Virus record (IMG/VR): IMGVR_UViG_3300035001_000008
Span: 1 to 64,000 of that record
Reading direction: 5' to 3' (one strand)
Length of the DNA stretch: 64,000 nucleotides
From: a virus
In this document: positions 24,169 to 41,980 of the stretch, piece after piece
Numbering within the stretch: position 1 is the first letter of the stretch
Layout: each line of letters begins with the position of its first letter
Made by a program: the position numbers and the translations under genes
Notes under the pieces: generated by a model
Told to the model about the DNA's origin: nothing
Seen by the model: only the letters and a program-made list of their open reading frames with translations
Database searches by the model: none

Positions 24169-25716
24169 ATGCCTAAAGGTAAAACAGATACAGCACTAGA
24201 TGTAAAAAGTTTTGTAGAAGGTAGTGGCTATTCGCTACTATCTGAGTACGTTGATAATAAAACTAAAATTAAAGTTGAATGCTGTAAAGGGCATCAGCGT
24301 GATACATTCTTTCAAAGTTTCAAAAAGAGTAAGGGTTGTGCACCTTGCACTAAAGGAGCACCCTCCCAATCAGAAGTAAAAGAATCTTTTGCCAGTGAAG
24401 ACTATCAGTTGATTGGTAGGTATGAAGCCAGTAATAAACCTCTGTCTGTCATTTGCAATAAGGGACACGCAAGCAACACTATTACATGGGGTAATTGGAA
24501 AAAAGGACATAAATGTGCAGTCTGTAAAGGTTTGCGGATAACGCACGATGATGTAAAAAAAGCTTTTGAAAAGAGAAGTTATACACTATTGTCGGAGTAC
24601 AAAGGAGCGCATAAAAAATTAGATTTTATATGCCCAAATGGTCATACCCATAAAATGGCTTGGACACATTTTCAACAAGGGAACGAATGTGCTAAATGTG
24701 TTGGGGGAATTAGGTTGACACTAGGTGAGGTAAAAACAGGGTTTTTATCCCAAGGGTATACGCCATTATTTGAGTCGTACACAAACGCTCAAACTTATTT
24801 AGATTACAAATGTGATAAGGGACACTATAATAAAATATTTTGGAATGCTTTTCAACAAGGACATAGATGCCCAGATTGTGCAGGGAATAAGCCCCTAACC
24901 ACTGATTATGTGCTAGAAGAATTTGCAAAAATCGGATACATATTACTATCCGAATATAAAAATAGCGATAAAAAGCTACGGTTTATTTGTGCAAATAACC
25001 ATATGCACACAACCGATTGGTCTAATTGGCTCTACGGGGTAAGATGCGGCATTTGCGCTGGTAGACATAAAACGACTGAATATGTTTCTATAGATTTTGA
25101 AAAAAGAGGCTATATTCTGTTATCTGAATATAAAAGAGAGTATCTACCTCTAAAAATGATATGCCCTAATAACCATCTACATTCAATTAGATGGGATTCT
25201 TGGGTACAAGGACATGGATGCGGCATTTGTGGTGGTAGGTATGTGGATACTCGGATAGCTAGAGAATCTTTTGAGGCAGAATCTTACAAGCTTGAATCCG
25301 AGTTTGAGCACTCTCAAAAACCCTTAAACTTTACATGCCCTAAAGGCCACAAAAACTCAATAACATGGATGGTATGGAATAGAGGCGGTAGATGCCAATC
25401 TTGTGCTGAACATGGGTTTAACCCAAACAAGCCAGGTATTTTATATTATTTAAGATTTGATATTTTACATGATTCGTACTATAAAATAGGCATAACCAAT
25501 AGATCTATAAAAGAAAGATTTGCCGCTGAACCGCTAGGATTTACGGTATTAAAACAAAGTTACTACGAAAAAGGAAATGATGCAAGAGTGGAGGAAACAA
25601 AAATAAAGAGGTTATATAAAAAGTATAGATATAAAGGAAGCTCTGTACTTCGCAGTGGAAATACAGAGCTTTTTGTAAAAGATATTTTAGAATTAGATTA
25701 TCCTAAAATTATCTAA
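24169..25716 (+). CDS. Zinc-repeat GIY-YIG-type homing nuclease, seven repeats
   Basis: 515 residues. Residues about 10-430 hold seven tandem units of 55-60 residues, each with C-x2/3-(G/N)H, a W-x-x-W/F segment and a closing C-x2-C (for example FICPNGH...CAKC), a zinc-ribbon or treble-clef pattern. Residues about 435-513 are a nuclease-like module with LYYLRF and YYKIGIT standing for GIY and YIG, then ERF, a Glu-bearing helix and GNTELFVKDIL, resembling the T5orf172/MUG113 branch. It is on the plus strand inside the minus-strand tail operon and ends 2 bp from the major tail gene stop. A homing role is inferred. Confidence 0.82.
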   Translation: MPKGKTDTALDVKSFVEGSGYSLLSEYVDNKTKIKVECCKGHQRDTFFQSFKKSKGCAPCTKGAPSQSEVKESFASEDYQLIGRYEASNKPLSVICNKGHASNTITWGNWKKGHKCAVCKGLRITHDDVKKAFEKRSYTLLSEYKGAHKKLDFICPNGHTHKMAWTHFQQGNECAKCVGGIRLTLGEVKTGFLSQGYTPLFESYTNAQTYLDYKCDKGHYNKIFWNAFQQGHRCPDCAGNKPLTTDYVLEEFAKIGYILLSEYKNSDKKLRFICANNHMHTTDWSNWLYGVRCGICAGRHKTTEYVSIDFEKRGYILLSEYKREYLPLKMICPNNHLHSIRWDSWVQGHGCGICGGRYVDTRIARESFEAESYKLESEFEHSQKPLNFTCPKGHKNSITWMVWNRGGRCQSCAEHGFNPNKPGILYYLRFDILHDSYYKIGITNRSIKERFAAEPLGFTVLKQSYYEKGNDARVEETKIKRLYKKYRYKGSSVLRSGNTELFVKDILELDYPKII

Positions 25717-25718
25717 TA

Positions 25719-26444
25719 CTAGGTAAAGGAATACGCAGGGATATACTCATAAGTGTCGCCTTGAACAGACAGTTCGAATGAGTACTTTTTAATCTCATTC
25801 ATATTACCAGGTCGGTTTAGGTTGCCAATTTTAGCAACACCACGATCCTCTGAACCATCAGGATAAGAAAGTAGGAAAAATACCTCGGATCCGAAGAATT
25901 GAGTAGTCTGGCCCGCGCGATAGACAATTTCTGTGAGCGCACGGTCACGAGGTCTTTCGATGCCACTCACACTGATCGTGCGGGCTGCTCTAATTTTCTC
26001 TACTTCCGTACCAGAACCCGATTCAGCAGAGGTGCTATCTACATCAGTATCACTCTGAGCAAAGCTATGGTCAGTGATACCGAACAGGGGGAGCATACCG
26101 GGGATGAAAGAAGCTGTTAGGTTAGCAGCCAAGGGGAAGATAATAGGAGCTACCGCAACTTCTACAGGCGTGCCACTTACGATAGAAGCTTCTTCAGTAA
26201 CAATAACCTGCACACGACGCTTATTAACGGTAAGGTCACTAAAGGTCAATGCTTGACCGGGTAGAAGCTCAATCGTGCCAGCGCTAGCATCAAGCTCTAG
26301 AGTAGTCGCACCGGCTAGGGCAGCAGTTTCTACAGTAAGCGTTACAGGGGTAACGGTACGGCTACCGGGGGGTAGTAGCTTGAGGTTAAGGAATACGTTC
26401 TTGAGCTGAATAGCTCCACTTGCAAAACTAGCCATATTAATCAA
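25719..26444 (-). CDS. Major tail (tube) protein
   Basis: 241 residues, largely beta with Ala/Thr/Val-rich strands, acidic in the middle and ending in a strand-rich domain with PAYSFT. The order tail terminator, this gene, chaperones, tape measure is the standard siphovirus order, and the size fits a tube subunit. An in-frame second Met at residue 4 (MASFASG) is an equally good start. Confidence 0.75.
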   Translation of the reverse strand: MINMASFASGAIQLKNVFLNLKLLPPGSRTVTPVTLTVETAALAGATTLELDASAGTIELLPGQALTFSDLTVNKRRVQVIVTEEASIVSGTPVEVAVAPIIFPLAANLTASFIPGMLPLFGITDHSFAQSDTDVDSTSAESGSGTEVEKIRAARTISVSGIERPRDRALTEIVYRAGQTTQFFGSEVFFLLSYPDGSEDRGVAKIGNLNRPGNMNEIKKYSFELSVQGDTYEYIPAYSFT

Positions 26445-26451
26445 TCTCCAG

Positions 26452-26856
26452 TTAATTTGTAATAAACACGGGTGAACAAATCCAGAAAACTATTTGTTCA
26501 TAGGATTCATCTGTAGCGGGGGAATGAATCGCCCTATCGACTACAAATTCAAGTTTCAAACGTCTTGATGCGGTTGAAAGTTTTACGGATGATCTATCAA
26601 AGTTAATTAACGTTGTTAGATAGTATTGGTCAGCGAATGCACCGCCTGAAACACGGGTATTCTTACCAATAGGTTCTCTTTGTATTGTAACCATTAAACC
26701 ATTTGCAGATTTGCGCCTGGTATCTTCAGGAGGTTCAACAGTTAAAGAAGGTTGACCATCGGAAAAAGTACCCAATAAATCACCAACCACAGCACGTACT
26801 CTATTAACAATGGCTGCTAATTGATAATCGTTAGCTTCTACTACTTGATTACTCAA
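26452..26856 (-). CDS. Probable tail terminator protein
   Basis: 134 residues, alpha/beta, in the slot directly before the major tail protein, where tail terminators (lambda gpU-like) lie. It overlaps its upstream neighbour by 8 nt and is 7 nt from the major tail gene start. The assignment is by gene order and size; no diagnostic motif. Confidence 0.6.
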   Translation of the reverse strand: MSNQVVEANDYQLAAIVNRVRAVVGDLLGTFSDGQPSLTVEPPEDTRRKSANGLMVTIQREPIGKNTRVSGGAFADQYYLTTLINFDRSSVKLSTASRRLKLEFVVDRAIHSPATDESYEQIVFWICSPVFITN

Positions 26857-27235
26857 AAGTCACCTCCTGAGAATCATATAGCTCACCTGTATCGATACGA
26901 TCACGTAAACCCGCTTTAACAAGTTCACCGTTTTTACGCTGTGTATCTCTAGGGTGATACCAACGAATAGCGGCTAAGTTTGATTGCATTTTTAGTGCAA
27001 GCTCTTCGACAAATAAAGCGAAAGCCCTTTTAACATCTCCATCGTAGTTATCTACGAACAAGGCAGGGCAATCTGTTTCTTTTATAGTGGTTAACACCCA
27101 AGGGGAAGCAGGTAAATCAGGACGATTATCTTTATAAGTAGCGCCTTGATGAATTGCTAACGCATGACCAGCGGTGTATTTAATGTTGGCTTTTTGAGGG
27201 GTAAGGGTAATTTTATTCCATTTAGCTTTAACCAT
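26849..27235 (-). CDS. Probable neck / tail-completion protein
   Basis: 128 residues with a helical C-terminal half and a DRIDTGELYDS segment, a (D/T)GxL pattern common in HK97 gp10-like neck proteins. The position between head-closure and tail-terminator candidates supports this. It overlaps both neighbours slightly, so the block is translationally coupled. Confidence 0.6.
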   Translation of the reverse strand: MVKAKWNKITLTPQKANIKYTAGHALAIHQGATYKDNRPDLPASPWVLTTIKETDCPALFVDNYDGDVKRAFALFVEELALKMQSNLAAIRWYHPRDTQRKNGELVKAGLRDRIDTGELYDSQEVTFE

Positions 27236-27639
27236 TACCCACCCCCAACAGTTAAAAAATAACCGCTTATCTGTGTCCCTAATGCTTTTGAAACTGCTTT
27301 GAAACGTTGTGGTACTAATACCTCAATTGAAAAATCACCAGTGTAAGTAACACCTGAAGCAGGGTCAACAAACTTAGCCTTTATTAATTGATTTAAGGGT
27401 AAGTCTGTTGGTTGCAACTTAGGCTCTACTAAATTACCAGTTACGTACATTCTAGAAACCGCAGGGCCATCATTAAATGTTTCTGATGGGTTAAGCGTTC
27501 CTTGATATACACTAGCGGTAACTGTCTTTTCAACTGGATTAACAGGTCTTTGAATCCCTAAAGAATCGGTCTCATATTGCCCACTATCCGTAGAATAAGT
27601 GAGCCATAGATTAGTGAATTTCTTAAAGGGAGAACCCAT
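27235..27639 (-). CDS. Probable head-closure (stopper) protein
   Basis: 134 residues, mostly beta strands, in the third slot after the major capsid gene. Stoppers or head-closure proteins normally lie here. It shares single-base overlaps with both neighbours. Functional assignment by order only. Confidence 0.55.
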   Translation of the reverse strand: MGSPFKKFTNLWLTYSTDSGQYETDSLGIQRPVNPVEKTVTASVYQGTLNPSETFNDGPAVSRMYVTGNLVEPKLQPTDLPLNQLIKAKFVDPASGVTYTGDFSIEVLVPQRFKAVSKALGTQISGYFLTVGGG

Positions 27640-28118
27640 TAATTAAATTTAGCCTCAATTTCAGATTCACTAAATTTAACGCCTTCATTTAGGCTTTTGA
27701 ACTCATCAAGGGATGAAAAGCCAGAATCAGGCATCTTTTTTAGAATCAATTTAGCTGCTACATTGCCGATACCCTCTAGCGCTACCAGCTCAGGCTGTGA
27801 AGGCTTCCAGTTAGTAGATTTAAGTACTGGTGCAACATTGAGCTTAGGCTGTTGTACTGGCAGGGGTTGACCACTTAGAGGGTCATCTTTAAGGGATACC
27901 TGTAGACCATCTTTATCGGCGGTAGATGGCTCTACAAATAGTTCATCTAGGATGCCTAGTTCTAGAGCCATCTTTACTGAAGGATGGCGTTTAGCTACTA
28001 CCCATTCACTATCATCAACGTTGATGTTTACACCGGGAAGTAATTGTAGAAAATTACGCTTACCCCCGGAATAATTTACGTCAAGGCTAGTGGGTCGATT
28101 ATGCTTGATTGTTGCCAT
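27639..28118 (-). CDS. Head-tail connector candidate with helix-hairpin-helix motif
   Basis: 159 residues. The C-terminal part has a helix-hairpin-helix signature (LVALEGIGNVAAKLILKK), normally a DNA-backbone-binding element, then a second helix pair. The N-terminal part (about 1-55) looks like a small structural domain. It is the first gene after the major capsid protein, where connectors are usual. It is preceded by the palindromic motif at 28129. Confidence 0.6.
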   Translation of the reverse strand: MATIKHNRPTSLDVNYSGGKRNFLQLLPGVNINVDDSEWVVAKRHPSVKMALELGILDELFVEPSTADKDGLQVSLKDDPLSGQPLPVQQPKLNVAPVLKSTNWKPSQPELVALEGIGNVAAKLILKKMPDSGFSSLDEFKSLNEGVKFSESEIEAKFN

Positions 28119-28128
28119 GATTAACCCT

Positions 28129-28144
28129 TATCTAATATTAGATA
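28129..28144. promoter_or_regulatory. Perfect palindrome TATCTAATATTAGATA
   Basis: A 16-bp exact palindrome just upstream of the connector gene start, overlapping the major capsid gene stop. On the minus strand it is followed by AAGGGTTAATC and ATG. It is the strongest member of the RTTAGAY motif family found upstream of many genes in the window; it could be an operator or part of a promoter. Confidence 0.5.
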
Positions 28145-29055
28145 CCGTAGGCCATGCGCATAGACAGCGGCTTACGGCACTCGACACCACCCGTAGAAGC
28201 GCGGCAAATAACCTTAAAGGCCAGGTTAAACTGTTGAGTAGGTTGCTGATCAAAGTCACGGGGAACGTGATACTTAATCTTGTCAGCCCGCTTGCGCCAG
28301 CTAATCATGAGGTCAGTACCACCAGTACCCTTACCAGCTAGGTAAGGGAGGGGCATGACGTTCTGAACACCCGCACGGGATGCCCGCTGAGTACGCAAGA
28401 ACATCTCTAGGATGGTGGTATCAGACCCGGTTTGCATAGGAGTTGAGCTAATCTGCTCAAACTGCGCTACAGGCAAACCAATATTCTCAGGAATCTCTAC
28501 CATGTTGGTAGCTACTTTTGTGGCGCTAGCAAAGTTAACTAGGTCACGGTAGATTTTATCGGGGGTTTTAGATGCCCAAGTCGTACCAGACGCAGTACCG
28601 TCATTTAGTACAGTCGCGGTAGGCACGTTGGGATGGTTCAGGAAACCCAGTAGATTGTTGGCAGTATCGCCATCGTACCCGATGAAATCTAGCTTAGCTT
28701 CGATTACATCGCGGGCTGCAATGGCCATAGAAGCATCGAGGTTGGTTCTAGCGTATTGAGCGCTTTCTAGGTCATCCAACGTATAGGAATAACCATCGGC
28801 GATAGTACGAACGTACCCTACCCGCTCTTCTGCATTCAGATCCACCATGGGAATGTCATCCCCACCGTTGGCGAGGATTTTAGCTTCCCCTACATAAGTC
28901 AGCAGTTTGTAGGAATAAGTCCGAGCACCAATAGGGATTTCAGAAGATACAGGAAGAATGGCACCAGAAGCCATGAGCCTTTCTGGAAAATCCTGCTCAA
29001 CAACTTGGGTTTGAACGTATTTAAGTTGGTCGCGAAGAAAAAGAGAAGAAACCAT
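28138..29055 (-). CDS. Major capsid protein, DUF2184-like HK97 fold
   Basis: 305 residues. The sequence has the look of the DUF2184 capsid family: an N-terminal helix with LKYVQTQVVEQDFPER, an IPIGARTYSYK segment, and a C-terminal segment with KYHVPRDFDQQP. It follows the protease-scaffold and decoration genes and precedes the connectors, the normal order. No separate delta domain is obvious; scaffolding is probably supplied by the protease gene upstream. Confidence 0.85.
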   Translation of the reverse strand: MVSSLFLRDQLKYVQTQVVEQDFPERLMASGAILPVSSEIPIGARTYSYKLLTYVGEAKILANGGDDIPMVDLNAEERVGYVRTIADGYSYTLDDLESAQYARTNLDASMAIAARDVIEAKLDFIGYDGDTANNLLGFLNHPNVPTATVLNDGTASGTTWASKTPDKIYRDLVNFASATKVATNMVEIPENIGLPVAQFEQISSTPMQTGSDTTILEMFLRTQRASRAGVQNVMPLPYLAGKGTGGTDLMISWRKRADKIKYHVPRDFDQQPTQQFNLAFKVICRASTGGVECRKPLSMRMAYGI

Positions 29056-29066
29056 AATTATTACTC

Positions 29067-29606
29067 CTATGCCGTGGGCATATTAATGCGTAGAGGAACA
29101 AGCCCAGCAGCCGTAACCGCTTCAGTAAATCGAGCACCTGGTACAGCAAAAGCGCCAGTGGTATCGGCGTTATTGCGGAAACGTCCAATTACCGTATTAC
29201 CACCAGAAACTACTGCACGGGTAAACACAGGGCTGGTAGGGTTAACCGCAACTTCGGCGTAAACGTAAAGAGAACCTTTAATCATCACAGGAATGGGAGT
29301 ACCTGGAAGATAGTACATGTCTTGGGTGGAGTTCACCACACCAAGGCCATCTACAACACCTTGCAGTTCCTCATTACGCACTTTCTCAACAATACCTGCA
29401 AGGGTAAAGCCAGTGATAGCGGTGGGGTGAATAACGCGAGGGCGACCACTAGCATCTTCAGCATAGGACGTAGTAAATGCTACAGCCCGTCCAGGGTACA
29501 CAATGGTTTCACTGTAACAAGTAATGATTTCTTTAGGGCCGACACCGTAGGAAAGACCTTCTTCCCCAACAGCGTGAGTAAATCCGTAAGTCGTTTGAAT
29601 AGGCAT
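29067..29606 (-). CDS. Capsid decoration or head structural protein
   Basis: 179 residues, beta-rich and Gly/Val/Thr-rich, between the protease-scaffold and major capsid genes, where cement or decoration proteins lie. Segments such as GLVPLRINMPTA and TVIGRFRNNADT fit a trimeric decoration protein. No precise family can be named from the sequence alone. Confidence 0.65.
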   Translation of the reverse strand: MPIQTTYGFTHAVGEEGLSYGVGPKEIITCYSETIVYPGRAVAFTTSYAEDASGRPRVIHPTAITGFTLAGIVEKVRNEELQGVVDGLGVVNSTQDMYYLPGTPIPVMIKGSLYVYAEVAVNPTSPVFTRAVVSGGNTVIGRFRNNADTTGAFAVPGARFTEAVTAAGLVPLRINMPTA

Positions 29607-29607
29607 A

Positions 29608-31041
29608 TTAATTCATGGCCTCGCGTACAGGTTTCATAGAACGTTCCCGACGCTTTTTAGCGATAGGAGATTCTTTTTCTTTAGAGCCGCTTGCATAGTT
29701 AGCCCCGCCATACGTACCACTATCGGCACGTTCTTCCGCAGCATCTTCTACAGTTTCGCCACTATCCTTACGGGCTTGATTAATCATTTCCAGAAGAGAC
29801 ATGGAAATGTTTTCTTGAGCGTCTGCACGTTCAGCAGTTTCTTCTTTTTCTGGCTCAGTAACAACAGTGCTAGGTTGAAGCGCAGTATACAAACCGGCAA
29901 CATAACCAGAGTCACTATTAAAGCGCTCATTTTGCGCCAATTCAGGCTTTTGGGAAAGCAAATATAGGCGCTGAATGTTGGTAGAATCTAGTTTGAAGTC
30001 AGGGGTAAAATCAGAATCCTTACGGATTACAGGAAGCACCGTAGACCACAACTCAATTCGTTCTGACATTTGCTCAGCCATAGTCGCTGCCTGTTCATCG
30101 GCATTAAACTTAGGAGCTTTCTCAGCATCGGATAGCTTAGCTTCTACAACTTCAAGCAAGCCATCTTTACGACTGGACTCAGTTTTAACAGTTACTAGCT
30201 CATTTTCTAGTGCAGTCTTTTCAGACTTAGTAGAATTAAGTTCAGTTTCAAGATTGTCTAGACGGGTTTGAAGGTCTGCAACAGATGCGGCTAGCGCTGC
30301 ACTATCGTCACCATCAACGTTAAATACCCGGTTTTTAATCGGAATGGAAGTAGGCATACGCTTACCTTTTTGAATGTTTACGAGTTGATTAGTTAAATCA
30401 ATTATAGATTTACTAAAAACAGTTTGATTTGAACTATCTAATCTATTGAGGATTGAATTAATGTATTCCTCATCAAAATCAGTTTTATAAATGTCAGGGT
30501 CAGAATTTATCCATAGCTCACTATCAGTTGAATCCAACTTAAATGAAACTTCTGGGCCATGTCGCCCTCGCGTACATGCCGCAATATGATTGGCAATCCT
30601 CCCACCTTGACAATAAGGGTCTGATTCAGACCCGTCACCTTGAATTAGCGTGGTGCTATACCCTGGTGAAATCTGAGAGTAGGTGCCATCTTTAACGCTG
30701 TTGATCAAACTTCGATCAACTAGCGTAGCGACAATGCCTAAAAACTCACTATCCTCAACAACCATGTGATGGCCAGTCATACCTTTAAGATATTTAGTAG
30801 TGTTATCACTGTTTAATATCTCTGGAGGATGACCTTTAGTAACTGGAACCATTTTGAAAGAATCCAAAGTTTCCCTACTAAAAAGGTGCTCTGGCCTAAT
30901 GATTTCAGTTCTACTAGTACCGTCTTGGTTGATGTACTTTAATGGATAATTAGCACGGCCAATTCTGCCATAAATTCTCAAGTGACCATTGCTAGTCTCT
31001 TGAGATTTAAGAATAGGAGTAGAATCTTGCCTAAATTGCAT
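29608..31041 (-). CDS. DUF2213-type capsid maturation protease with scaffold
   Basis: 477 residues from ATG at 31041; a TTG three codons upstream is less likely. Residues about 1-170 match the DUF2213 head protein style (LKGMTGHHMVVE, YSQISPGYS, IAACTRGRHGPEV), thought to act as a prohead protease. Residues about 240-310 are a strong coiled coil, and the end is acidic then basic, as in scaffolding proteins. A protease-scaffold fusion upstream of the decoration and capsid genes is a common arrangement. In lysogeny it should be silent; its upstream region is shared with a divergent nuclease gene. Confidence 0.8.
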   Translation of the reverse strand: MQFRQDSTPILKSQETSNGHLRIYGRIGRANYPLKYINQDGTSRTEIIRPEHLFSRETLDSFKMVPVTKGHPPEILNSDNTTKYLKGMTGHHMVVEDSEFLGIVATLVDRSLINSVKDGTYSQISPGYSTTLIQGDGSESDPYCQGGRIANHIAACTRGRHGPEVSFKLDSTDSELWINSDPDIYKTDFDEEYINSILNRLDSSNQTVFSKSIIDLTNQLVNIQKGKRMPTSIPIKNRVFNVDGDDSAALAASVADLQTRLDNLETELNSTKSEKTALENELVTVKTESSRKDGLLEVVEAKLSDAEKAPKFNADEQAATMAEQMSERIELWSTVLPVIRKDSDFTPDFKLDSTNIQRLYLLSQKPELAQNERFNSDSGYVAGLYTALQPSTVVTEPEKEETAERADAQENISMSLLEMINQARKDSGETVEDAAEERADSGTYGGANYASGSKEKESPIAKKRRERSMKPVREAMN

Positions 31042-31183
31042 GTAAAACAATGCATAGATATTTCTAATAATAAAGTACTATTACTCAATTGTGTTTAATG
31101 CTAGATGTTATCTACTAGCCGATTATTGCTACTTATTTAATATTAAGCTACAATTAGATAAATGGGTTAAAAATTTAGGAATA

Positions 31184-32215
31184 ATGACTAGAAAGCTTGA
31201 CCGCGCATTTGTTAAAAATGAAATTGAAAATGTAGGGTATAGCCTAAATAGCACTTATATAAATTCTCAGTCTAAATTAACTATTATTTGCGATAAAGGT
31301 CACACTAACCAACTAGCGTGGAGTAAATGGAAAAGTGGATCTAGGTGTAAAACATGTAAAGGTATCGAATTTGCAAATTCTCTAAGAAATGACCCTAATC
31401 ATATAAAACAAGAAATTGAAGCAGAGGGATGGTTAGTACACGATTTGTATCACGACGCTAAAGTAAAAATGAAAGTTACGTGTCCTAGAGGTCATGAAAC
31501 ATCTATATGTTGGTCTAACTGGAAAGCTGGTAAAAGGTGCGGATTATGCGCAAGGGTAAATAATGGTAATAAACTTAGACTAACTTCTGACTTTGTCAAA
31601 GTTAGTGTTGAAGCAGAAAACTACGTTCTTAATAGCGTCTATAAAGGTTCTAAAACACATTTAGACATGACCTGCAAAAACGGTCATTCTATTTCCATGA
31701 CTTGGGATAATTGGAACGCTGGAAAACGCTGTGGTAAGTGCAACGGTAAACATAAGACTACGGAAGAAGTCTCTAAAGCTTTTGCGTTAGAAGGTTGTAC
31801 GCTTTTATCTCAATACGAAAGAAATAACAAGAAACTAGATTTTATCTGCCCTCAGGGTCACAGACATTCGATAACTTGGGCTGATTGGATAAGTGGTAGT
31901 AGGTGTGCAAAGTGCGCTGGTTATGGGTTTAATCCAAATAAACCAGCAAGTCTCTATTATCTAAAGTTTATAGTTGACTCAACACCTTATTACAAATTAG
32001 GAATTACTAACAGAACAATTCAAGAACGATATGCCCGTGAAAGGCTACCATATACAATATTAAAAGAGAATAGATACCTTTTTGGCAGTCTAGCCAAACA
32101 AAAAGAATCCGCACTATTAAAAAAGTTTAGCAATTACCTATACAAAGGTTTGCCAATTCTAAAAGACGGAAATACAGAAATTTTCATTAAGGACGTTCTT
32201 AAACTCGATGCATAA
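31184..32215 (+). CDS. Zinc-repeat GIY-YIG-type homing nuclease, four repeats
   Basis: 343 residues from ATG at 31184, which has AGGA just upstream; the frame is open back to a GTG at 31091. Same plan as the gene at 24169 but with four zinc units (TIICDKGH, KVTCPRGH, DMTCKNGH, DFICPQGH, each closed by C-x2-C) before the shared nuclease module (LYYLKF, YYKLGIT, ERY, GNTEIFIKDVL). The linker GFNPNKP before the nuclease is identical in both. It is divergent from the capsid protease gene and overlaps the Xre gene by 8 nt. Confidence 0.82.
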   Translation: MTRKLDRAFVKNEIENVGYSLNSTYINSQSKLTIICDKGHTNQLAWSKWKSGSRCKTCKGIEFANSLRNDPNHIKQEIEAEGWLVHDLYHDAKVKMKVTCPRGHETSICWSNWKAGKRCGLCARVNNGNKLRLTSDFVKVSVEAENYVLNSVYKGSKTHLDMTCKNGHSISMTWDNWNAGKRCGKCNGKHKTTEEVSKAFALEGCTLLSQYERNNKKLDFICPQGHRHSITWADWISGSRCAKCAGYGFNPNKPASLYYLKFIVDSTPYYKLGITNRTIQERYARERLPYTILKENRYLFGSLAKQKESALLKKFSNYLYKGLPILKDGNTEIFIKDVLKLDA

Positions 32216-32432
32216 CGAAAATACTATTCACGCTAATCTAAAAGCCCTCAGAAACACTACAAACAAAAGTCAATCTACACTAGCTAAAGAATTAAACCTC
32301 AGCGTGGATGCTTACAGAAAATGGGAGCATGGTAAGAAGTCTATTGATATTTTAGATTGTCACCGCTTAGCTGATGTTTTTGAACTTACACCAGTAGAAA
32401 TATTTATCCAACTAAACAAAGGACTCCTATAA
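32208..32432 (+). CDS. Xre-family helix-turn-helix regulator
   Basis: 74 residues, nearly all one Cro/CI-type HTH: SQSTLAKELNLSVDAYRKWEHGKKSID. It binds DNA as a small dimer and probably controls nearby genes. It starts within the end of the zinc-repeat nuclease gene and its last base is shared with the next start, so the three are co-transcribed. It could be the nuclease regulator or a phage switch protein; it is too short to be a classical CI repressor. Confidence 0.82.
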   Translation: MHNENTIHANLKALRNTTNKSQSTLAKELNLSVDAYRKWEHGKKSIDILDCHRLADVFELTPVEIFIQLNKGLL

Positions 32433-32806
32433 TGGAAAACCCTAACGCTTTTCACATCAACCTAAAAACATATACTGAAAATAACTTTGCTTTAGACTAT
32501 AAGCCTGCTATTGCTGATGGCATTGAACGTTGGCTTATTATGTATAACACACCAGTAATTATTGAATGTTCAGAAGTAAATACAATATTCACCATTTACC
32601 TAAACAGTCTTTTAGCTGATTTAATTCATCGTCTAGGTGTAGAACGTAGCGGTTCAATGGTTTCATTCAGTAATTTAAGTGAATTAAATAATAGAGTATT
32701 GGAACTTAGCCGTAAACACGTTTTTAATTACTTTAATGACCCTAAATATAAAGAAGCGGTAGATAGCATTCAGGGTAGTGTAATTGGGGTATTTGATGAT
32801 AACTAA
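32432..32806 (+). CDS. Hypothetical protein, STAS-like, paralogue A
   Basis: 124 residues. The core (NTPVIIECSEVN...LNSLLADLIHRLG) has the strand-helix pattern of STAS-like domains. It is a divergent paralogue of the gene at 33060: both have an A-x-DYxP segment, the strand-helix core and a DPKYKEAV / DPRYKHAV motif near the C-terminus. Function unknown; it follows the Xre gene with one shared base. Confidence 0.6.
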   Translation: MENPNAFHINLKTYTENNFALDYKPAIADGIERWLIMYNTPVIIECSEVNTIFTIYLNSLLADLIHRLGVERSGSMVSFSNLSELNNRVLELSRKHVFNYFNDPKYKEAVDSIQGSVIGVFDDN

Positions 32807-34096: not shown

Positions 34097-34133
34097 TTGA
34101 ATTAAAATAAAGTTATACCACTATTTTAATTGA

Positions 34134-34451
34134 ATGACTTTAATACACTTTGAGGAACAAGACCCAAAGAAATTAATTAAAAGTCAAAGGGCAGAAATAT
34201 TAAATCACTTTAAGCATACTTGTGTTTATTGCAAATCAAAAACTAAGCACATGACTATAGATCATGTGATACCCATTAAATATGGTGGCAGTGAAAGAAC
34301 TTCAAATAAAGTAACTGCGTGCCGTAGTTGTAATTTAGATAAAGCTCATGAGCCTTGGATTCCTTGGTATAGGCGACAATCTTTTTATGATGCTGTAACT
34401 GAGGTTTTTATTAAAGAATGGATTGATGTTGAGTTGAGAGAAGCGAGTTAA
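34134..34451 (+). CDS. HNH endonuclease
   Basis: 105 residues. Shows the full HNH-Zn motif: CVYC, IDHVIPIKYGG, N-x-VTACRSCN. The His-Asn-His residues act with a metal to cut DNA, and the two C-x2-C pairs bind structural zinc. It sits on the plus strand, divergent from the minor head gene, as a free-standing homing-type gene; HNH proteins that assist packaging terminases also look like this, but no terminase is adjacent. Confidence 0.88.
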   Translation: MTLIHFEEQDPKKLIKSQRAEILNHFKHTCVYCKSKTKHMTIDHVIPIKYGGSERTSNKVTACRSCNLDKAHEPWIPWYRRQSFYDAVTEVFIKEWIDVELREAS

Positions 34452-35361: not shown

Positions 35362-35365
35362 TCCT

Positions 35366-35527
35366 TTATTTATTCTTAAGTAGGTTAATTAAACGTGCAA
35401 GGTCATCATTAGATAACTTACCTAGTAACCTTTGATATTTAAGCAAGTCGCCTACATATAACGCCTCTATTGTTTCAGATAACGTAGATGACATTGGCGC
35501 AAGGTTGGCAGCATCAGGAAGGCTCAT
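35366..35527 (-). CDS. Small helical hypothetical protein
   Basis: 53 residues, almost entirely helical, acidic N-terminal half and basic end. The start has AAGGA 9 nt upstream with an AT-only spacer, and the frame fits exactly between two genes, 4 bp from each. No family recognised. Confidence 0.55.
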   Translation of the reverse strand: MSLPDAANLAPMSSTLSETIEALYVGDLLKYQRLLGKLSNDDLARLINLLKNK

Positions 35528-35530
35528 TAA

Positions 35531-35722
35531 TTAGTCCTTATTTAAGTAAAATGTCGTTATACACCCCAAGTATATGGTAACTAACGTTAGTTGTGCAATA
35601 TCAGATGCACTTAAAAAGCCGTCTAACATCCCAGTATATAACCGCTCAGACCCACCAAATAGGAAACTAGCTAGTAAAAAGTCTTTACTACCCTTTTGGA
35701 ACAGCTCTATTAAATTGTCCAT
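35531..35722 (-). CDS. Small membrane protein
   Basis: 63 residues with a hydrophobic segment at about 41-59 and a helical N-terminus. Abuts the next gene upstream without a gap. Function unknown. Confidence 0.5.
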   Translation of the reverse strand: MDNLIELFQKGSKDFLLASFLFGGSERLYTGMLDGFLSASDIAQLTLVTIYLGCITTFYLNKD

Positions 35723-35974
35723 TTAATTCAAGTGTTCATTGGTAGTGATCCTATCAAAATCGGCATCCCTAGTAGATTCTGAATTATAAGCCCATTCAAT
35801 ATCACATCCCTCAAAAACAATAGATGCAATACCATCATTGTCTGGATACCACCTCAATCTTGACTTTTTGATAGAGTTACACAGGCTTAGATTGACAGGG
35901 TTATTAGCTCTAGCATGTCCTCGGTATCTTGTACTTTCTACAGAACACTTAACAAAAAATGGATTAATACTCAT
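35723..35974 (-). CDS. Hypothetical protein
   Basis: 83 residues, mixed charge, with an N-terminal basic half and a DGIASIVFEGCDIEW strand region. Starts 1 nt after the preceding gene stop. Not recognised. Confidence 0.5.
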   Translation of the reverse strand: MSINPFFVKCSVESTRYRGHARANNPVNLSLCNSIKKSRLRWYPDNDGIASIVFEGCDIEWAYNSESTRDADFDRITTNEHLN

Positions 35975-35975
35975 T

Positions 35976-36170
35976 TTACTTTCCTTGATTGGGTGTTTCC
36001 TTCAATTTAGATTGAATTTGTTTAATGACATCATCAGCGCTTACTGAGTTCTCTAGGCGGTAACGTTCAATCTCAGTGTAGTTAATGGTTGCAGTTGGCA
36101 TACGTCTACCTAATGAAACAGCCTCAATGTTACCACTATCTAATTGAATTGACAGTATGGGAATTACCAC
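35976..36170 (-). CDS. Hypothetical protein
   Basis: 64 residues, with a beta N-terminal half and a helical C-terminal half ending in a lysine-rich tail. Its first base is the last base of the upstream gene. Not recognised. Confidence 0.5.
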   Translation of the reverse strand: MVIPILSIQLDSGNIEAVSLGRRMPTATINYTEIERYRLENSVSADDVIKQIQSKLKETPNQGK

Positions 36171-36478
36171 TAGACGGATTTATCTAAATTTGATTCGTAT
36201 AGATGTTGCTGCAATAGATACCCTTTAAGTAACCACAATTGATCCTCGGCATCTTGTCTAGCAACAAAACGACCTACATCAAGATCAAAGTTATTAGGGT
36301 CTATACAAGCGCCTCTACCAGTAACAGCAAACCCGTTAGGTAATTTGTAAGATACAAGTAACTCTTTGCCCCAAAAAATATGCTCTGAGGTTTCAGAGGC
36401 GTCTAGCAAAGCGTTGATGCCTTCTATAGTTACTTTGTTGTCTGGATACCAAACAGAGTAATCTTTAGACATAATCAT
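36170..36478 (-). CDS. Hypothetical protein
   Basis: 102 residues, or 100 from the second Met, which is better spaced from the AAGGA just upstream. Acidic alpha/beta protein without a recognised family, at the head of a run of six tightly packed minus-strand genes ending with the exonuclease. Confidence 0.55.
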   Translation of the reverse strand: MIMSKDYSVWYPDNKVTIEGINALLDASETSEHIFWGKELLVSYKLPNGFAVTGRGACIDPNNFDLDVGRFVARQDAEDQLWLLKGYLLQQHLYESNLDKSV

Positions 36479-36586
36479 CCTTAATTTAAAATATCTACGT
36501 TATAAGACTGGGGTTATAGCTTACCCTTAAATTGGTATCTAGCTTTTACAGTGAATACCCTTTTAGGTGGTATAGGTTCATATTCA

Positions 36587-36763
36587 CTAGGCATACAAAA
36601 CCTCTTGTTGAACAGAGCTAACCAGTACGGACTTAGCAACTACCATCCAAGTTTCTTTTACTTCACTCTGCAAGTCTTCCCATACCGTAGTGTATTGCCC
36701 ATTGAGAGTACACAACCAATAAGCGTTATAAGCTTCACTTGCGATTACTTCAATTGGAGTCAT
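36587..36763 (-). CDS. Small hypothetical protein
   Basis: 58 residues, helical, rich in Trp/Val/Glu (for example YTTVWEDLQSEVKETW). Followed immediately by a second possible 26-codon frame (36512-36592) that overlaps its stop. Codon use and direction match its neighbours; no family recognised. Confidence 0.5.
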   Translation of the reverse strand: MTPIEVIASEAYNAYWLCTLNGQYTTVWEDLQSEVKETWMVVAKSVLVSSVQQEVLYA

Positions 36764-36832
36764 AGGACTAAGTAAATTAGGTAAAAAATAACTTGAAAAT
36801 CTAACAAGACAATATTTGTGAATTGATAGATG

Positions 36833-37114
36833 CTATTCATTCAAAGCAGCCTCAGCAATTTCAACGAAATCAGCAGCAGATATCTGACTTAGAGTTTCAT
36901 ATTCTGAATCAGTTAAAATGCTTCCATTAATCTGCATTGGCTCAACTGCATCAACCCTTTGAATGCTTACTTGTTTGTCGCAAGTACCCAAAGGGTTAAT
37001 TTTCGTATCAGTAATAGTGCAAGAGCCTGAATCGTAATATTCACAGTTGACGCAGACTGAATTAAAGTGTGTTTCAGAATCTACGTTATATCCAAGCTCT
37101 TTTAGAGTTACCAT
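36833..37114 (-). CDS. Cysteine-containing hypothetical protein
   Basis: 93 residues. The N-terminal half has CVNCEYYDSGSC...GTC, four cysteines spaced like a small metal-binding knuckle; the C-terminal half is an acidic helix pair. Preceded by the palindrome at 37120, only 5 nt from its start. Function unknown. Confidence 0.55.
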   Translation of the reverse strand: MVTLKELGYNVDSETHFNSVCVNCEYYDSGSCTITDTKINPLGTCDKQVSIQRVDAVEPMQINGSILTDSEYETLSQISAADFVEIAEAALNE

Positions 37115-37119
37115 TTATG

Positions 37120-37131
37120 TCTAATGTTAGA
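37120..37131. promoter_or_regulatory. Perfect palindrome TCTAATGTTAGA
   Basis: A 12-bp exact palindrome directly before the start of the gene at 37114 and after the endolysin stop on the same strand. Member of the recurrent RTTAGAY family. Function inferred only. Confidence 0.45.
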
Positions 37132-37152
37132 TGAGTCTATTCTAACTAAATA

Positions 37153-37884
37153 CTAAAACCCGTACCGCCAGCGGGCATAATATCCGCGAACATCAGCATG
37201 GGTGAAAACAGATGAGCTTGCTAAGCCCCCTCGATTACCCCACCAAGGATCTAGCTTTGCATATACATCAGCAGGGAGCATACCCTCTACTCTAAAATCA
37301 ACACCAAGCCCCGTCATGTGGGTGCTCTGTGTTGCCCCATTAACCCTACGGTTAGTAGCTGGGTCGCGATACCAGGAATTAATATAAATAGGTCTATCTA
37401 GAAATTCTCTAATATCTTGCATAGCCTTAGCAGATGAAATGATGCCATCTACTACCCTAGCATTGGCAGGGGGTCTATAAGCTTTACCTGAGAAGTGCAA
37501 AGCCTCACCCCAAGTAAAATTACCATTCTGGATAATAGGCTGATTGCTGTAGAACGTACTGCTTTGACCCGGTAGCTTAAAAGCTACTCCAGGGTTCTTT
37601 ACATCAGGCGGTTCATCTTTAGGCTTGTTATTAGGGCTGTACCCTGCTGCATCCTCAACGTGTGGTTTATAAACGTGCCAAGTATTGCGGCCTGTTGGGT
37701 GAATATCTTTAATATTAAATTTAGTAGGGTCAAACGTTACCAATAGGTAATCATCAAGCTCACTATAAGACTGAATCGGGTATGTCCCTGCTTTAATAAA
37801 AGCTTTGTCAGAGTCAGGTAAAACTGAAGCTGCTTTAGTTGAGGTTTTAACCCAAGTAGGTGCCGTGATAGTTAGAGTATGCAT
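37153..37884 (-). CDS. Endolysin, peptidase M15 (D-Ala-D-Ala carboxypeptidase type)
   Basis: 243 residues. An SH3-like N-terminal domain (about 1-75) and a Pro-rich linker precede an M15 catalytic domain. Visible motifs are NFTWGEALHFSG, INSWYRDPATNRRVNGA, and the zinc ligands H189 and D196 (HMTGLGVD) with H229 (FTHAD). This form is common in cyanobacterial genomes and phages and cleaves peptidoglycan cross-links. Next to a holin-like gene, it makes a lysis cassette. No signal peptide is seen, so it needs the holin for release. Confidence 0.9.
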   Translation of the reverse strand: MHTLTITAPTWVKTSTKAASVLPDSDKAFIKAGTYPIQSYSELDDYLLVTFDPTKFNIKDIHPTGRNTWHVYKPHVEDAAGYSPNNKPKDEPPDVKNPGVAFKLPGQSSTFYSNQPIIQNGNFTWGEALHFSGKAYRPPANARVVDGIISSAKAMQDIREFLDRPIYINSWYRDPATNRRVNGATQSTHMTGLGVDFRVEGMLPADVYAKLDPWWGNRGGLASSSVFTHADVRGYYARWRYGF

Positions 37885-38151
37885 TTATTCTTCAGTCCCA
37901 CTTACATTTTCAGATTGAATAGATGCGGCTACTGGAGTGCCTACAATAGCTTCAGTAGCTTTCTTACGTCCCTCGATAGTGCCGTGTAGAGTAATAGCAC
38001 CTGCAAACAAGGCCGCGATTTCAATTTGATTAGGAACTCTGAATTTACCCGTATCAGGATTGTATAGAGCAACTACTGTACTAAGTACAAGTACAACAAA
38101 AGCACCTACAGCATTCTGAACGGTACTTGATTTATAAACTGGCTTAGACAT
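37885..38151 (-). CDS. Holin-like membrane protein
   Basis: 88 residues with two hydrophobic helices (about 11-29 and 42-59), a short connecting turn and a polar C-terminal tail. Small size, topology and direct adjacency to the endolysin support a holin that opens the inner membrane at lysis. Overlaps the upstream gene by 8 nt. Confidence 0.78.
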   Translation of the reverse strand: MSKPVYKSSTVQNAVGAFVVLVLSTVVALYNPDTGKFRVPNQIEIAALFAGAITLHGTIEGRKKATEAIVGTPVAASIQSENVSGTEE

Positions 38152-38575
38152 TTTTAATTACCCTTTTATAGTGCTGATAGGCATCGTAAGAATGCTGACC
38201 TTCAATCTTGAATGTGTTATTGGTAGGAATACCGCTGAATGCTGCAAGCATAGTTAGACCGTATAGAGTCTCATACCCATGTGTAAGTTCTTCAAACTTA
38301 TCGCCATGCTTGAGATAAAGCGCTTCAAGGTAATGTCGTACTCTAGCGGCTTCTACATCGTCTGTAATAGGCCCAACAGATTGAGCGTAAGCATAGACAG
38401 TATCTACAATAGAAACGGTTGCAGGCGCTTCAGGCGTAGGCTCAACCTCTTCTATAGGGCCAATAATAGATTCGATAATCTCTTCAACTACTGGCAAATC
38501 TTCATCATGAATGTCTACGTTCACATTCTCAACAAGTTCTTTGCCAATTAACTCGCTTACTTTTCGTCTGACCAT
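38144..38575 (-). CDS. Hypothetical acidic protein
   Basis: 143 residues from ATG at 38575, one base after the preceding stop; an in-frame GTG four codons upstream would overlap that gene. The first half is Glu/Pro-rich with a flexible look, the second half helical with several Tyr/His. Adjacent to the holin, so a lysis-related role is possible but not shown. Confidence 0.55.
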   Translation of the reverse strand: MVRRKVSELIGKELVENVNVDIHDEDLPVVEEIIESIIGPIEEVEPTPEAPATVSIVDTVYAYAQSVGPITDDVEAARVRHYLEALYLKHGDKFEELTHGYETLYGLTMLAAFSGIPTNNTFKIEGQHSYDAYQHYKRVIKNV

Positions 38576-38588
38576 ATCAAATAGCACT
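38572..38588. repeat. 17-bp direct repeat at a gene junction, copy 1
   Basis: Identical to 38885-38901. It spans the end of one minus-strand gene (codons Ser-Ala-Ile-stop) and the ATG of the next, in the arrangement TGATATG. The second copy lies at the next gene junction, so the whole gene between is bounded by the repeat. Confidence 0.85.
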
Positions 38589-38888
38589 GTGAGGTTTAGT
38601 ATGCAGTTTTTTAAGGGTGTGCCTAACGTTTTGGGTTTCAGCCGGGTTTACAGGAATTGAAAACCAAATGCTAATTACATAGGACAATGCAGTAGAGATT
38701 ACAGCCCAAGTATCAATCAACCTAAACTTAAACCAATAAACTAACCACATCAACGGATAGTAATCAGTTCTGACTATGTAAACTAACTGTCTGCTGTAAT
38801 CGGTTTGCACAACCTTATAAGACACTTGAGCGTTTACACCAAGATCATAAGGTGAAACTAATACACATTGTGATTCAGGTATATCCAT
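38577..38888 (-). CDS. Membrane-associated hypothetical protein
   Basis: 103 residues from ATG at 38888 (a GTG four codons upstream is also open). A hydrophobic, Trp/Tyr-rich region at about 45-80 could span or lie in the membrane; the C-terminus is basic. Not recognised. It is bounded by the two copies of the 17-bp repeat. Confidence 0.55.
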   Translation of the reverse strand: MDIPESQCVLVSPYDLGVNAQVSYKVVQTDYSRQLVYIVRTDYYPLMWLVYWFKFRLIDTWAVISTALSYVISIWFSIPVNPAETQNVRHTLKKLHTKPHSAI

Positions 38889-38901
38889 ATCAAATAGCAC
38901 T
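38885..38901. repeat. 17-bp direct repeat at a gene junction, copy 2
   Basis: Exact match to 38572-38588. Both upstream proteins end in Ser-Ala-Ile and both downstream genes begin with ATG after TGAT. Confidence 0.85.
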
Positions 38902-39117
38902 AGCTTGAGGAATAAGATTCAAATTACGTTCAGGTGTGCCCGCTACCCTACGTCGCCAATAAGTTACACCTGTTACCTCTTTACTTTCAACTACTCCATC
39001 TAACTTAAGTTTACTCAAAATGATTGAAGTAACAGGTCTAATAGTGCCTGAAAGGTTTGTGATTTCATAAATGGATTTCCAATGAAAATTAAGATTGCGG
39101 TAAACTAAATCCTGCAT
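38890..39117 (-). CDS. Small winged-helix-like protein
   Basis: 75 residues from ATG at 39117. A longer frame to 39159 would run through a terminator hairpin, so the shorter start is preferred. The helix-helix-strand pattern (KSIYEITNLSGTIRPVTSIILSKLKLDGVVESKEVTGVTYWRR) fits a winged-helix DNA-binding domain, where the last part would be the wing. Possible regulator; not assigned. Confidence 0.55.
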   Translation of the reverse strand: MQDLVYRNLNFHWKSIYEITNLSGTIRPVTSIILSKLKLDGVVESKEVTGVTYWRRRVAGTPERNLNLIPQASAI

Positions 39118-39121
39118 TAAA

Positions 39122-39145
39122 TAAAAAAGGGTAGACGGGCTACCC
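39122..39145 (-). terminator. Intrinsic terminator on minus strand
   Basis: GGGTAG-CCCGT-CTACCC followed by six T. It lies downstream of the gene at 39176 and before the winged-helix-like gene. A TATAAC-ATTAGA motif sits at 39151-39164 beside it. Confidence 0.7.
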
Positions 39146-39175
39146 CCATTGTATAACATTAGATTGTTTGATTAA

Positions 39176-39799
39176 TTAGAGTAAGTCTAACTGTTTCTGC
39201 ATCTCTGCAATGATTGTAGACATAAACTCTTTTTGACTAGGAGGCATCACTCGATTACCAACATCCTTAGTACCTGGTGAATCCATATCAGGGTAGGCAG
39301 TCTTAACCGCTTGATTGAATACGCAGTCTGCATACTCTAAACATGCTTCCCATGCATTATCAAAACTGAGTGACCATTGGAGGTAATCATTGCGCCATTC
39401 CCAAATGAAGATGTCGCAGAAAAAACTAGGGTCTTTATCCCTGAGTAGGTGCAAGTCCTCTACAGCAGTATCTAACCATTCAAAAGATGCTGATAGGATT
39501 TTGTCTTTATCGTGAATAAGATTCCATGTCTCCGCATTAATAGAGTGAGTCTGCATTGCATACCCAGCAGGTAGACCTTCCACAGCCTCTACTATCTGCC
39601 AATGCCCTAGAGTCTTAAATTCTATATCAATCATCCTTACAGGAGCACCATGCCATGTAACAGGAGTGATATAGAAACAGCTACCTTGTTTAGGCTTACG
39701 CTTAATCGCTTTAGTGTAAGGGATAGCTTCAAACTCACCTGAAGCATTAGCCCGTTGTAAGTCTAACTTATTGAACATATTACTCCTATATTTACTCAT
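39176..39799 (-). CDS. Hypothetical protein
   Basis: 207 residues. Alpha/beta, rich in Trp (for example FIWEWRNDYLQWSLS) with a Pro-rich C-terminal linker and a final helix. The N-terminal part has a CFYITPVTWHGAPV strand pair. No family recognised. First gene of the minus-strand series left of the inverted-repeat element. Confidence 0.55.
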   Translation of the reverse strand: MSKYRSNMFNKLDLQRANASGEFEAIPYTKAIKRKPKQGSCFYITPVTWHGAPVRMIDIEFKTLGHWQIVEAVEGLPAGYAMQTHSINAETWNLIHDKDKILSASFEWLDTAVEDLHLLRDKDPSFFCDIFIWEWRNDYLQWSLSFDNAWEACLEYADCVFNQAVKTAYPDMDSPGTKDVGNRVMPPSQKEFMSTIIAEMQKQLDLL

Positions 39800-39912
39800 C
39801 CATTATACGACATTAAACAAACTCAGCATTTACTTAAAGTGCGGTTGACGGTAGGTAAGCATCACTATAAAAGCTGTCGCAATGTGAGACTTAGTTATCT
39901 AATTAAGTGTAA

Positions 39913-40101
39913 GTATATCAACTTATATCCACATAATTCAATATGTTTATGTATACCCTAGCGCTCACCTTGCTTCGCAGGTCGCTACTATGCCAAGTGG
40001 TTATCTATAAAACCTCAGCTATTGTAGTCAGCCCGCGAAGCAAGGGCTGGCGACCACGTATTTATATACTTAATGAATTATGTGGATATAAGTTGATATA
40101 C
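39913..40101. repeat. 189-bp inverted-repeat element in a 411-bp gene-free gap
   Basis: The ends 39913-39940 and 40074-40101 are perfect 28-bp inverted repeats. Inside, CCTTGCTTCGC (about 39970) and GCGAAGCAAGG (about 40035) are again inverted, as are parts of their surroundings, so nearly the whole element could fold into one long hairpin. No clear target-site duplication flanks it. It could be a MITE-like or palindromic mobile repeat, or an origin/operator region; the rest of the gap (39800-40210) shows only promoter-like AT-rich DNA. Confidence 0.75.
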
Positions 40102-40210
40102 CTAGAGCCTCTATCTAAATGTTTGAATAAAAAAATAGCGCCTCTGTCGTTGCACGTTAGACAGAAAAGCGCTATACTTGATTTAGTAATAATCAACTTA
40201 AGTATAACTC

Positions 40211-41164
40211 ATGAACAGCACGTTAGACAACGTTCCTCTATATTTTCTAGATATTGACCCAGACTGGAAAGACAAAATCGACACATGGGCATCTAATATG
40301 CCTAAGTCTTCCCTACTAGGTGTCATCGGTCTAACTCAGCATTTACTCTACTCACCAGCACACGCCATAGGAGCCTTAAAGAAGGATGTTGTAAGGCTTG
40401 ATGGGTGTTTGCTGTATAGCGTTGAGGAAGATGCCCTAGCAGAGCTAAATCAGCCTAGGTCATTTCAATGTGCATTAACTCACATTCAGAAGCATCTAGT
40501 TAGATACTGGATAGGTGCTACCTCAAATAGAATCACCCTCAGAAAGTACATTGCTAAGCTTTCCGGTCTAGGTGCATTCAGAACTGAGTCAGAATGGCAC
40601 CCAGGCGGCAAACAGCCTATGTTGTTCCATAACCTGAACTTTGATTTACTACTGGGTATTTACGAAAGGCTAGAAAAAGCTTGGTTTGAACGTGGGTTTA
40701 CAGTTCATGCATTCCCTAAGCATCGTGGGTTTGTAGGTAACTTACTGTTTCAAGCATGGACTAAGGTAATCTACGGTGTAGAGAATGCTAAGCCTAACCG
40801 AAGTGGGCAAGGTTCTACATTCGATTATGTATCTAAGGCTAGACACTCTCAGATAGCCTCTGACAAAGATGAGAGAGCTTTTCTAGAGTATTCTGCCCGT
40901 GTAGATGCTGAGCCTAGTAAAAGGTCTATTGAGCCTCCTAAGCCCGTCCTAACGGCTGTATATGAGGCAGCTAAGGCTAAGATTGATTTTGTATTCACTG
41001 ATTGGTTTTATCGCTTTGACTTTAAGCCTAAAAATCCTATCAAAGTTGAAAACCTTGTAACTAACCCTTATAGCCCTGAGCATTCCAGTTTGTATTGTGA
41101 ACCTCCTATGGAAGAATATGACGACGATATGAGAGCTTATGTAGAATCAATTCCTTTTAATTAA
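40211..41164 (+). CDS. Hypothetical protein, possible DNA-binding or replication role
   Basis: 317 residues, helical and basic in the middle with an acidic C-terminal tail. Features include a helix-rich region with CALTHIQKHLVRYWIG and a WHPGGKQPMLFHNLN segment that could be a wing. It lies directly after the long inverted-repeat element, which would suit an initiator protein, but no known initiator motif is visible. A GTTAGAC motif lies upstream (40151) and another occurs within its first codons. Confidence 0.5.
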   Translation: MNSTLDNVPLYFLDIDPDWKDKIDTWASNMPKSSLLGVIGLTQHLLYSPAHAIGALKKDVVRLDGCLLYSVEEDALAELNQPRSFQCALTHIQKHLVRYWIGATSNRITLRKYIAKLSGLGAFRTESEWHPGGKQPMLFHNLNFDLLLGIYERLEKAWFERGFTVHAFPKHRGFVGNLLFQAWTKVIYGVENAKPNRSGQGSTFDYVSKARHSQIASDKDERAFLEYSARVDAEPSKRSIEPPKPVLTAVYEAAKAKIDFVFTDWFYRFDFKPKNPIKVENLVTNPYSPEHSSLYCEPPMEEYDDDMRAYVESIPFN

Positions 41165-41200
41165 TTAAAAACTCAACCTAACTATACAAAGGACTTCAAA

Positions 41201-41980
41201 ATGACTAGAGGCGTTTATACAATTTGTTGCGTTCCAACGGGAAAAGTTTATGTAGGTTCAAGCAAGAATATTGAATCGAGATGGATAAGACATAAACGAG
41301 ACTTAAAAAAGAATAGACATCATTCTAAAAACTTGCAAGATGCATGGAATAAATACTCTGAAACCGATTTTAAGTTTTGTATTGTTGAAGAAGTGATTGA
41401 TGGTAATTTACTAGAGTTTGAATATAGATGGACACGAAAGCTAGACGCTTACAAAATAGGGTTTAATAGTTCACCTTTTATACAAAGACCTACTATTGTT
41501 TATTATCTTGAAGTCACTAAAAACGGCAATACAGTTTATAAAGTAGGTAAGACTCAGCAAAGCATCGAAAAACGCTTTGAAGAAGATACTTGCGAAATTA
41601 AAGTATTGGGTTTAGTGAAAATGGCTAATAAAGCAGATGCTACTTGGTTCATTCAATATATACTCACAAAGTATGAAGAATTTAAGTATGATGGCAGTGA
41701 TTTATTAATTAGCGGAAATACTCAGTTGTTTAGTAAAGATATTTTTAATTTAAGCAGCAAGTTTAGCAATAACCCTGACAACCTAGAATGTATCATCAAG
41801 GAATACATTAAGAAGACTCGCAAAAAACCTAACATTGTAGGTAGGCAACTAAGTGAGTATGAAAAATCCCTCAAACCTAGAGTATGGAGATCTCATATGG
41901 CGGGTTCCCCAAAAGAACTATTAGAGAAATACGGAATTATAGAACTCTGTAGAGATTACAGTGATAGAAAACGTTCTTAA
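41201..41980 (+). CDS. GIY-YIG endonuclease with second, degenerate nuclease-like module
   Basis: 259 residues. N-terminal GIY-YIG domain (about 3-95): GVYTI, KVYVGSS, a conserved Arg in SRWIRHK and a Glu in LLEFEYRW. The second part (about 100-185) is related to the C-terminal module of the two zinc-repeat nucleases (VYYLEV, VYKVGKT, EKRF, KYDG, GNTQLFSKDIF), but the helix Glu and the Glu of GNTE are replaced, so it may be inactive. A basic C-terminus follows (PRVWRSHMAGSPKE). Likely a homing endonuclease. It is 36 bp after the gene at 40211 with AAGGA upstream. Confidence 0.85.
   Translation: MTRGVYTICCVPTGKVYVGSSKNIESRWIRHKRDLKKNRHHSKNLQDAWNKYSETDFKFCIVEEVIDGNLLEFEYRWTRKLDAYKIGFNSSPFIQRPTIVYYLEVTKNGNTVYKVGKTQQSIEKRFEEDTCEIKVLGLVKMANKADATWFIQYILTKYEEFKYDGSDLLISGNTQLFSKDIFNLSSKFSNNPDNLECIIKEYIKKTRKKPNIVGRQLSEYEKSLKPRVWRSHMAGSPKELLEKYGIIELCRDYSDRKRS

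Follow-up and report, generated by a model that had tools for sequence, protein, structure and literature searches.

Three genes of a viral element end in the same protein module behind entirely different N-terminal parts, which raises the question of whether they represent a new kind of modular nuclease or belong to a known one, and of what the module does in the gene where its catalytic residues are missing. These genes, referred to as P1, P2, and P3, lie on the plus strand of the stretch of 64,000 nucleotides that was analyzed (positions 1 to 64,000 of IMG/VR virus record IMGVR_UViG_3300035001_000008; hereafter, the window). The answer that we consider likely is that P1 and P2 are T5orf172 homing genes and that P3 is a GIY-YIG homing nuclease in which a dead T5orf172 domain serves as a linker or DNA-binding platform. 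Only P3 is unusual, as it combines a second, intact nuclease with a copy of the module that lacks its catalytic residues. The features below were delineated from open reading frames (ORFs), database matches, AlphaFold models, a census of catalytic residues in aligned modules, and a profile hidden Markov model (HMM). The latter was built from 29 viral-contig relatives, without any window protein because circularity was to be avoided, and was applied to all ORFs of the contig of 255,358 bp.

24169..25716, plus strand: P1, putative T5orf172-type homing endonuclease gene with seven zinc units and the module (ORF, PHROG 681, Pfam CapR, zinc pattern)
24280..25404, plus strand: zinc array of P1, seven C-x3-H...C-x2-C units, residues 38-412 (pattern, Pfam CapR, DUF4379)
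25417..25713, plus strand: T5orf172/MUG113-like module of P1, Arg and both Glu intact (outside-relative HMM, E=1.8e-32; residue census)
31184..32215, plus strand: P2, putative gene of the same family as P1, with four zinc units and the module (ORF, PHROG 681, CapR subthreshold, AlphaFold)
31925..32212, plus strand: predicted nuclease module of P2, catalytic residues intact (outside-relative HMM, E=1.9e-30; residue census)
41201..41980, plus strand: P3, GIY-YIG domain, Glu-less T5orf172-like module, and 74-residue tail (ORF, Pfam, NCBIfam, HMM, residue census, AlphaFold)
41201..41470, plus strand: N-terminal GIY-YIG domain of P3, every motif residue present (PF01541, 6.2e-11; TIGR01453; alignment with 27 relatives)
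41483..41755, plus strand: T5orf172-like module of P3, very probably inactivated, residues 95-185, Arg kept (outside-relative HMM, E=3.9e-23; residue census; AlphaFold)
41756..41977, plus strand: C-terminal tail of P3, predicted to be helical with low confidence (predicted local distance difference test, pLDDT, about 60)

Family membership of the three genes

The initial annotation had described a common C-terminal unit in the genes at 24169, 31184, and 41201, preceded by seven zinc units, four zinc units, and a complete GIY-YIG domain, respectively, and every motif that it listed was indeed present. The HMM of outside relatives matched the C-terminal unit of all three genes with an E-value of 3.9e-23 or better, so that the homology of the modules, as judged from their sequences, is confirmed far beyond chance; even the P3 module scored 77 bits and kept its core motifs. 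The N-terminal parts were recovered by pattern searching, which yielded seven C-x3-H...C-x2-C units in P1 and four in P2, and by Pfam and NCBIfam matches. The Pfam CapR model matched P1 (515 amino acids) with 38.6 bits (cutoff, 24.2), and its score for P2 was slightly under the same cutoff (22.7 bits). The ATG start of P2 at 31184 lies within an ORF that is open from a GTG at 31091. Both P1 (E=2.8e-67) and P2 (E=1.9e-47) matched PHROG 681, annotated as 'endonuclease', and both kept the catalytic Arg and Glu residues in the census of aligned modules (107 in total), in which the columns of the catalytic Arg, Gly, and Glu are nearly invariant. An AlphaFold model of P2 (mean pLDDT of 89.5; predicted template modeling score, pTM, of 0.40) consisted of four repeated units followed by a C-terminal nuclease domain.

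These genes were placed in a wider context by a survey of 99 members of the family, drawn from viral contigs, one phage record, and bacterial or archaeal genomes. PHROG 681 was matched by 96 of the 99 proteins, and the Pfam models found were DUF4379 (68 proteins), T5orf172 (52), CapR (41), MUG113 (40), and DUF723 (39), the T5orf172 and MUG113 counts being taken at E<=0.01. The number of zinc units per member varied from one to about eight, and other members carried Myb-like fronts or other repeats. This is the architecture reported in the survey of T5orf172 homing endonucleases by Barth, Dunham and Seed (2023), in which 200 of the 229 members possess CapR, DUF723, or DUF4379-type units, in which repeats recombine, in which swapping affects the fronts as well as the nuclease modules, and in which the genes often adjoin virion and other essential genes (PMC10448857). 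On sequence grounds, P1 and P2 thus belong to this described family, and no new concept is needed for them. The main proposal of the initial annotation, namely a family of modular homing nucleases whose targeting parts are exchanged and expanded, was right in kind; the idea that the family is undescribed had to be rejected, as zinc arrays and domain swapping have been documented already (PMC10448857). Indeed, the ICP1 gp174-type T5orf172 endonucleases (PHROG 681; PMC10448857) share with the window genes the C-terminal module, the variable number of zinc units, the swapped fronts, and the vicinity of virion genes. There is no difference in kind between these zinc-array endonucleases and P1 or P2, whereas P3 differs from them in that a GIY-YIG domain takes the place of the zinc units, the module is internal, and the catalytic Glu residues are lost.

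Two further module genes, both zinc-array genes of the T5orf172 type, were located on the same contig (L012, C36:213997-215049(-); L011, C36:192612-193463(+)), which brings the number of copies on this contig to five. A tree of 106 modules grouped P2 with these two additional members (support of 100/100) and left P1 and P3 unplaced. The GFNPNKP linker, which had been pointed out as identical in both zinc forms, is present in both but is not peculiar to them: it occurred exactly in 5 of 106 proteins, and similar GF-N/D-type linkers occurred in most. As the motif is family-wide, it does not point to a recent exchange between P1 and P2, and its use as a mark of such an exchange was rejected. The GFN codons of P2 and P3 have GGGTTTAAT in common, which may mark a fusion point, although it is too short to count.

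The GIY-YIG front and the glutamate-less module of P3

The P3 gene encodes 259 amino acids in a frame that is open throughout. Its residues 4-82 matched PF01541 (42.9 bits; cutoff, 22.6) and its front also matched NCBIfam TIGR01453 (60.4 bits; cutoff, 56.05). The GIY-YIG motif is intact (GVY, YVG, G4, Y6, Y17, G19, R27, E74, and N89), all these positions being conserved or nearly conserved in 27 relatives. In having the full motif in residues 1-92 and the nuclease ahead of other modules, P3 resembles the I-TevI-type GIY-YIG endonucleases (PF01541, TIGR01453). The latter, however, possess C-terminal NUMOD or helix-turn-helix parts, for which neither Pfam nor PHROG gave a match in P3; in their place stand the apparently dead T5orf172 module and a tail for which no homologue was found. 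Hence, P3 pairs a GIY-YIG nuclease with a T5orf172 domain that belongs to a distant branch of the superfamily containing both. An origin of P3 by tandem duplication of a single domain was considered and rejected, since its two halves have no significant sequence similarity (E of 0.53) and a comparison of the profiles of the two families was not significant either.

Of the 107 aligned modules, 106 carried the helix Glu and 106 carried the GNTE Glu, P3 being the single exception in both cases, so that the loss noticed by the initial annotation turned out to be unique in this alignment. The catalytic Arg is conserved in all modules but one, which is not P3; the P3 module retains this Arg, the Tyr pair, and the YKVG motif. 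In Odn (ICP1 Gp88), the substitution E180A at the corresponding helix Glu abolishes activity (PMC8263062). By analogy, and given the loss of both invariant Glu residues, the module of P3 is very probably dead as a nuclease, which supports the earlier guess that it no longer cuts. Its fold seems to have been kept: when the second half of P3 was modeled alone, AlphaFold predicted a confident strand-strand-helix-strand-helix domain (core block pLDDT of 93-98), the elements of which were also found after the zinc units in the P2 model.

P3 was unique in the samples surveyed. Among the 99 module proteins, only P3 carries a GIY-YIG domain, none of 83 other GIY-YIG relatives carries the module, and no second case of GIY-YIG plus module emerged from an additional scan in which P3 headed the profile. 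Furthermore, the P3 module is internal, being followed by a tail of 74 residues, whereas relatives end 0-31 residues past theirs. A parallel is provided by Odn (PMC8263062), which is likewise a chimera, its T5orf172 module being preceded by a front that was swapped in. In Odn, however, the front is a RepA_N DNA-binding domain and the nuclease is active, whereas in P3 the front is a nuclease and the module is expected to be inactive.

The main rival to a function of the dead module as a platform is decay, i.e., P3 would be a fusion of two homing nucleases of which the second half is drifting, without present function. The branch of the P3 module is long (1.19 versus a median of 0.5 in the tree of 106 modules), no other module is devoid of these glutamates, and homing genes are reported to be often broken by frameshifts or deletions. 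Nevertheless, 259 codons have stayed open, the GIY-YIG motif is complete, and the module, in which the core motifs persist and for which a fold is predicted confidently, still reaches 77 bits, which makes decay an unlikely explanation.

The platform reading of P3 would imply that the intact I-TevI-type GIY-YIG domain in front takes over the cutting, and that the T5orf172 module, with its fold kept and its catalytic Glu residues gone, serves as a linker, as a spacer, or as a DNA-binding platform, probably together with the helical tail. The dead module would then fill the place of the NUMOD or helix-turn-helix parts of ordinary GIY-YIG homing nucleases. A more far-reaching idea, which we put forward tentatively and consider less than probable, is that one nuclease domain replaced the targeting part of another and that the displaced nuclease persists as a dead DNA-binding or spacing domain, that is, a pseudo-nuclease targeting module. 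In any case, P1 and P2 enlarge the known T5orf172 homing family, and P3 constitutes a natural experiment, with a dead nuclease fold in an open frame behind a live nuclease. If the dead part still binds DNA, P3 would show how homing enzymes gain new targets by stacking nuclease domains, and would offer a small fusion in which each part can be assayed by itself.

Genomic setting and possible homing

The contig ends matched numerous relatives of the host genus, in places with identities of up to 94%, and region 22000-32500 was not matched by any of the 26 other genomes searched. Because of this difference, the element is most likely an integrated, strain-specific, large prophage. P2 adjoins the gene for the head maturation protease, those for the decoration and major head proteins coming next, and P1 is located further downstream within this minus-strand cluster of virion genes, ahead of a very long ORF taken as the tape measure gene. 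The three genes are on the plus strand and the neighboring virion genes (protease, decoration, and major head proteins) on the minus strand; the guanine-plus-cytosine content of P1-P3 is 0.33-0.36, compared with 0.395 for the window. The opposite strand and the lower guanine-plus-cytosine content fit mobile insertions. Window positions 20000-46000 yielded no group I intron.

In this setting of a large prophage, P1 and P2 would act as free-standing homing endonuclease genes of the T5orf172 type. We infer that the zinc array would bind a long DNA target, that the C-terminal module of the GIY-YIG superfamily would cut it, and that repair from the copy bearing the homing endonuclease gene would spread P1 and P2. 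Several results weigh against the interpretation of the three genes as a whole. The Pfam T5orf172/MUG113 scores of P1 and P3 are under the curated cutoffs, and P2 has no match to either model. Comparison of the module profile with that of classical GIY-YIG domains was not significant, and a Foldseek search of two AlphaFold models against the PDB gave no meaningful match; therefore, the module is assigned to the GIY-YIG superfamily on the basis of Pfam similarity and published work. No empty allele was found for any of the three sites. The candidates, two viral contigs with head proteins 33-36% identical and one prophage, the closest relative, with a head protein identity of 57%, are so divergent that the sites could not be aligned at the nucleotide level. 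Finally, P3 is a single sequence.

Alternatively, the zinc proteins may not be homing nucleases but domesticated weapons or repressors directed against competing phages or satellites. CapR and Odn indeed share domains with them and act in phage-satellite conflict (PMC10448857, PMC8263062). The CapR protein of PLE satellites, compared here only via the Pfam CapR model, has the same zinc domain and is a homing-nuclease relative turned repressor (PMC10448857). CapR represses, however, and cutting by it is not described, whereas P1 and P2 keep an intact module with every nuclease residue; in addition, the five scattered copies on this one contig and the position of P1 and P2 between virion genes follow the pattern of homing genes. 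A weapon or repressor role is thus quite improbable. Most improbable is that P3 is a two-nuclease enzyme, the module of which still cuts via other residues such that the retained Arg, Tyr pair, and YKVG motif would be explained, since both acidic residues that are invariant in the 106 other modules are gone and Odn depends on the equivalent helix Glu (PMC8263062).

Other genes of the window deserve mention. A gene of 74 codons encoding a Cro/C1-type helix-turn-helix protein (window 32208-32432(+); PF01381, 38.4 bits; cutoff, 23) starts within the last codons of P2, its stop codon abutting the next gene at 32432, and possibly encodes a regulator co-expressed with P2. An ORF of 105 amino acids for an HNH endonuclease (window 34134-34451(+); PF01844, 6.2e-11), on the strand opposite to its virion neighbors, is probably a further mobile nuclease. 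Upstream of P3, on the same strand and 36 bases apart, lies a gene for 317 amino acids (window 40211-41164(+)) without Pfam, PHROG, or phage-record match. A tRNA-Phe gene near the left end (window 1316-1388) is a possible prophage attachment site, and a tandem tRNA-Arg/tRNA-Met pair is located inside the element (window 45773-45921).

Other architectures among the relatives

In seven surveyed relatives (L090, L097, L111, L113, L160, L164, and L033), the module stands behind repeats resembling W...EA.KY.TR.EF.....AY..A......HM in place of zinc units, and in L164 repeats of this type occur beside one zinc unit. Judged from their sequences, these repeats are a candidate for a different repeat-based DNA-binding part. 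Another relative, L148 (1164-3368(+)), combines two T5orf172 modules (residues 281-376 and 638-733) in a single ORF, with the catalytic residues present in both. Lastly, proteins from genomes of the host's class (L256-L269) have a zinc-type N-terminal part, which we take to be CoiA-like, followed by a weak T5orf172-like module, and possibly represent a chromosomal branch of the family.

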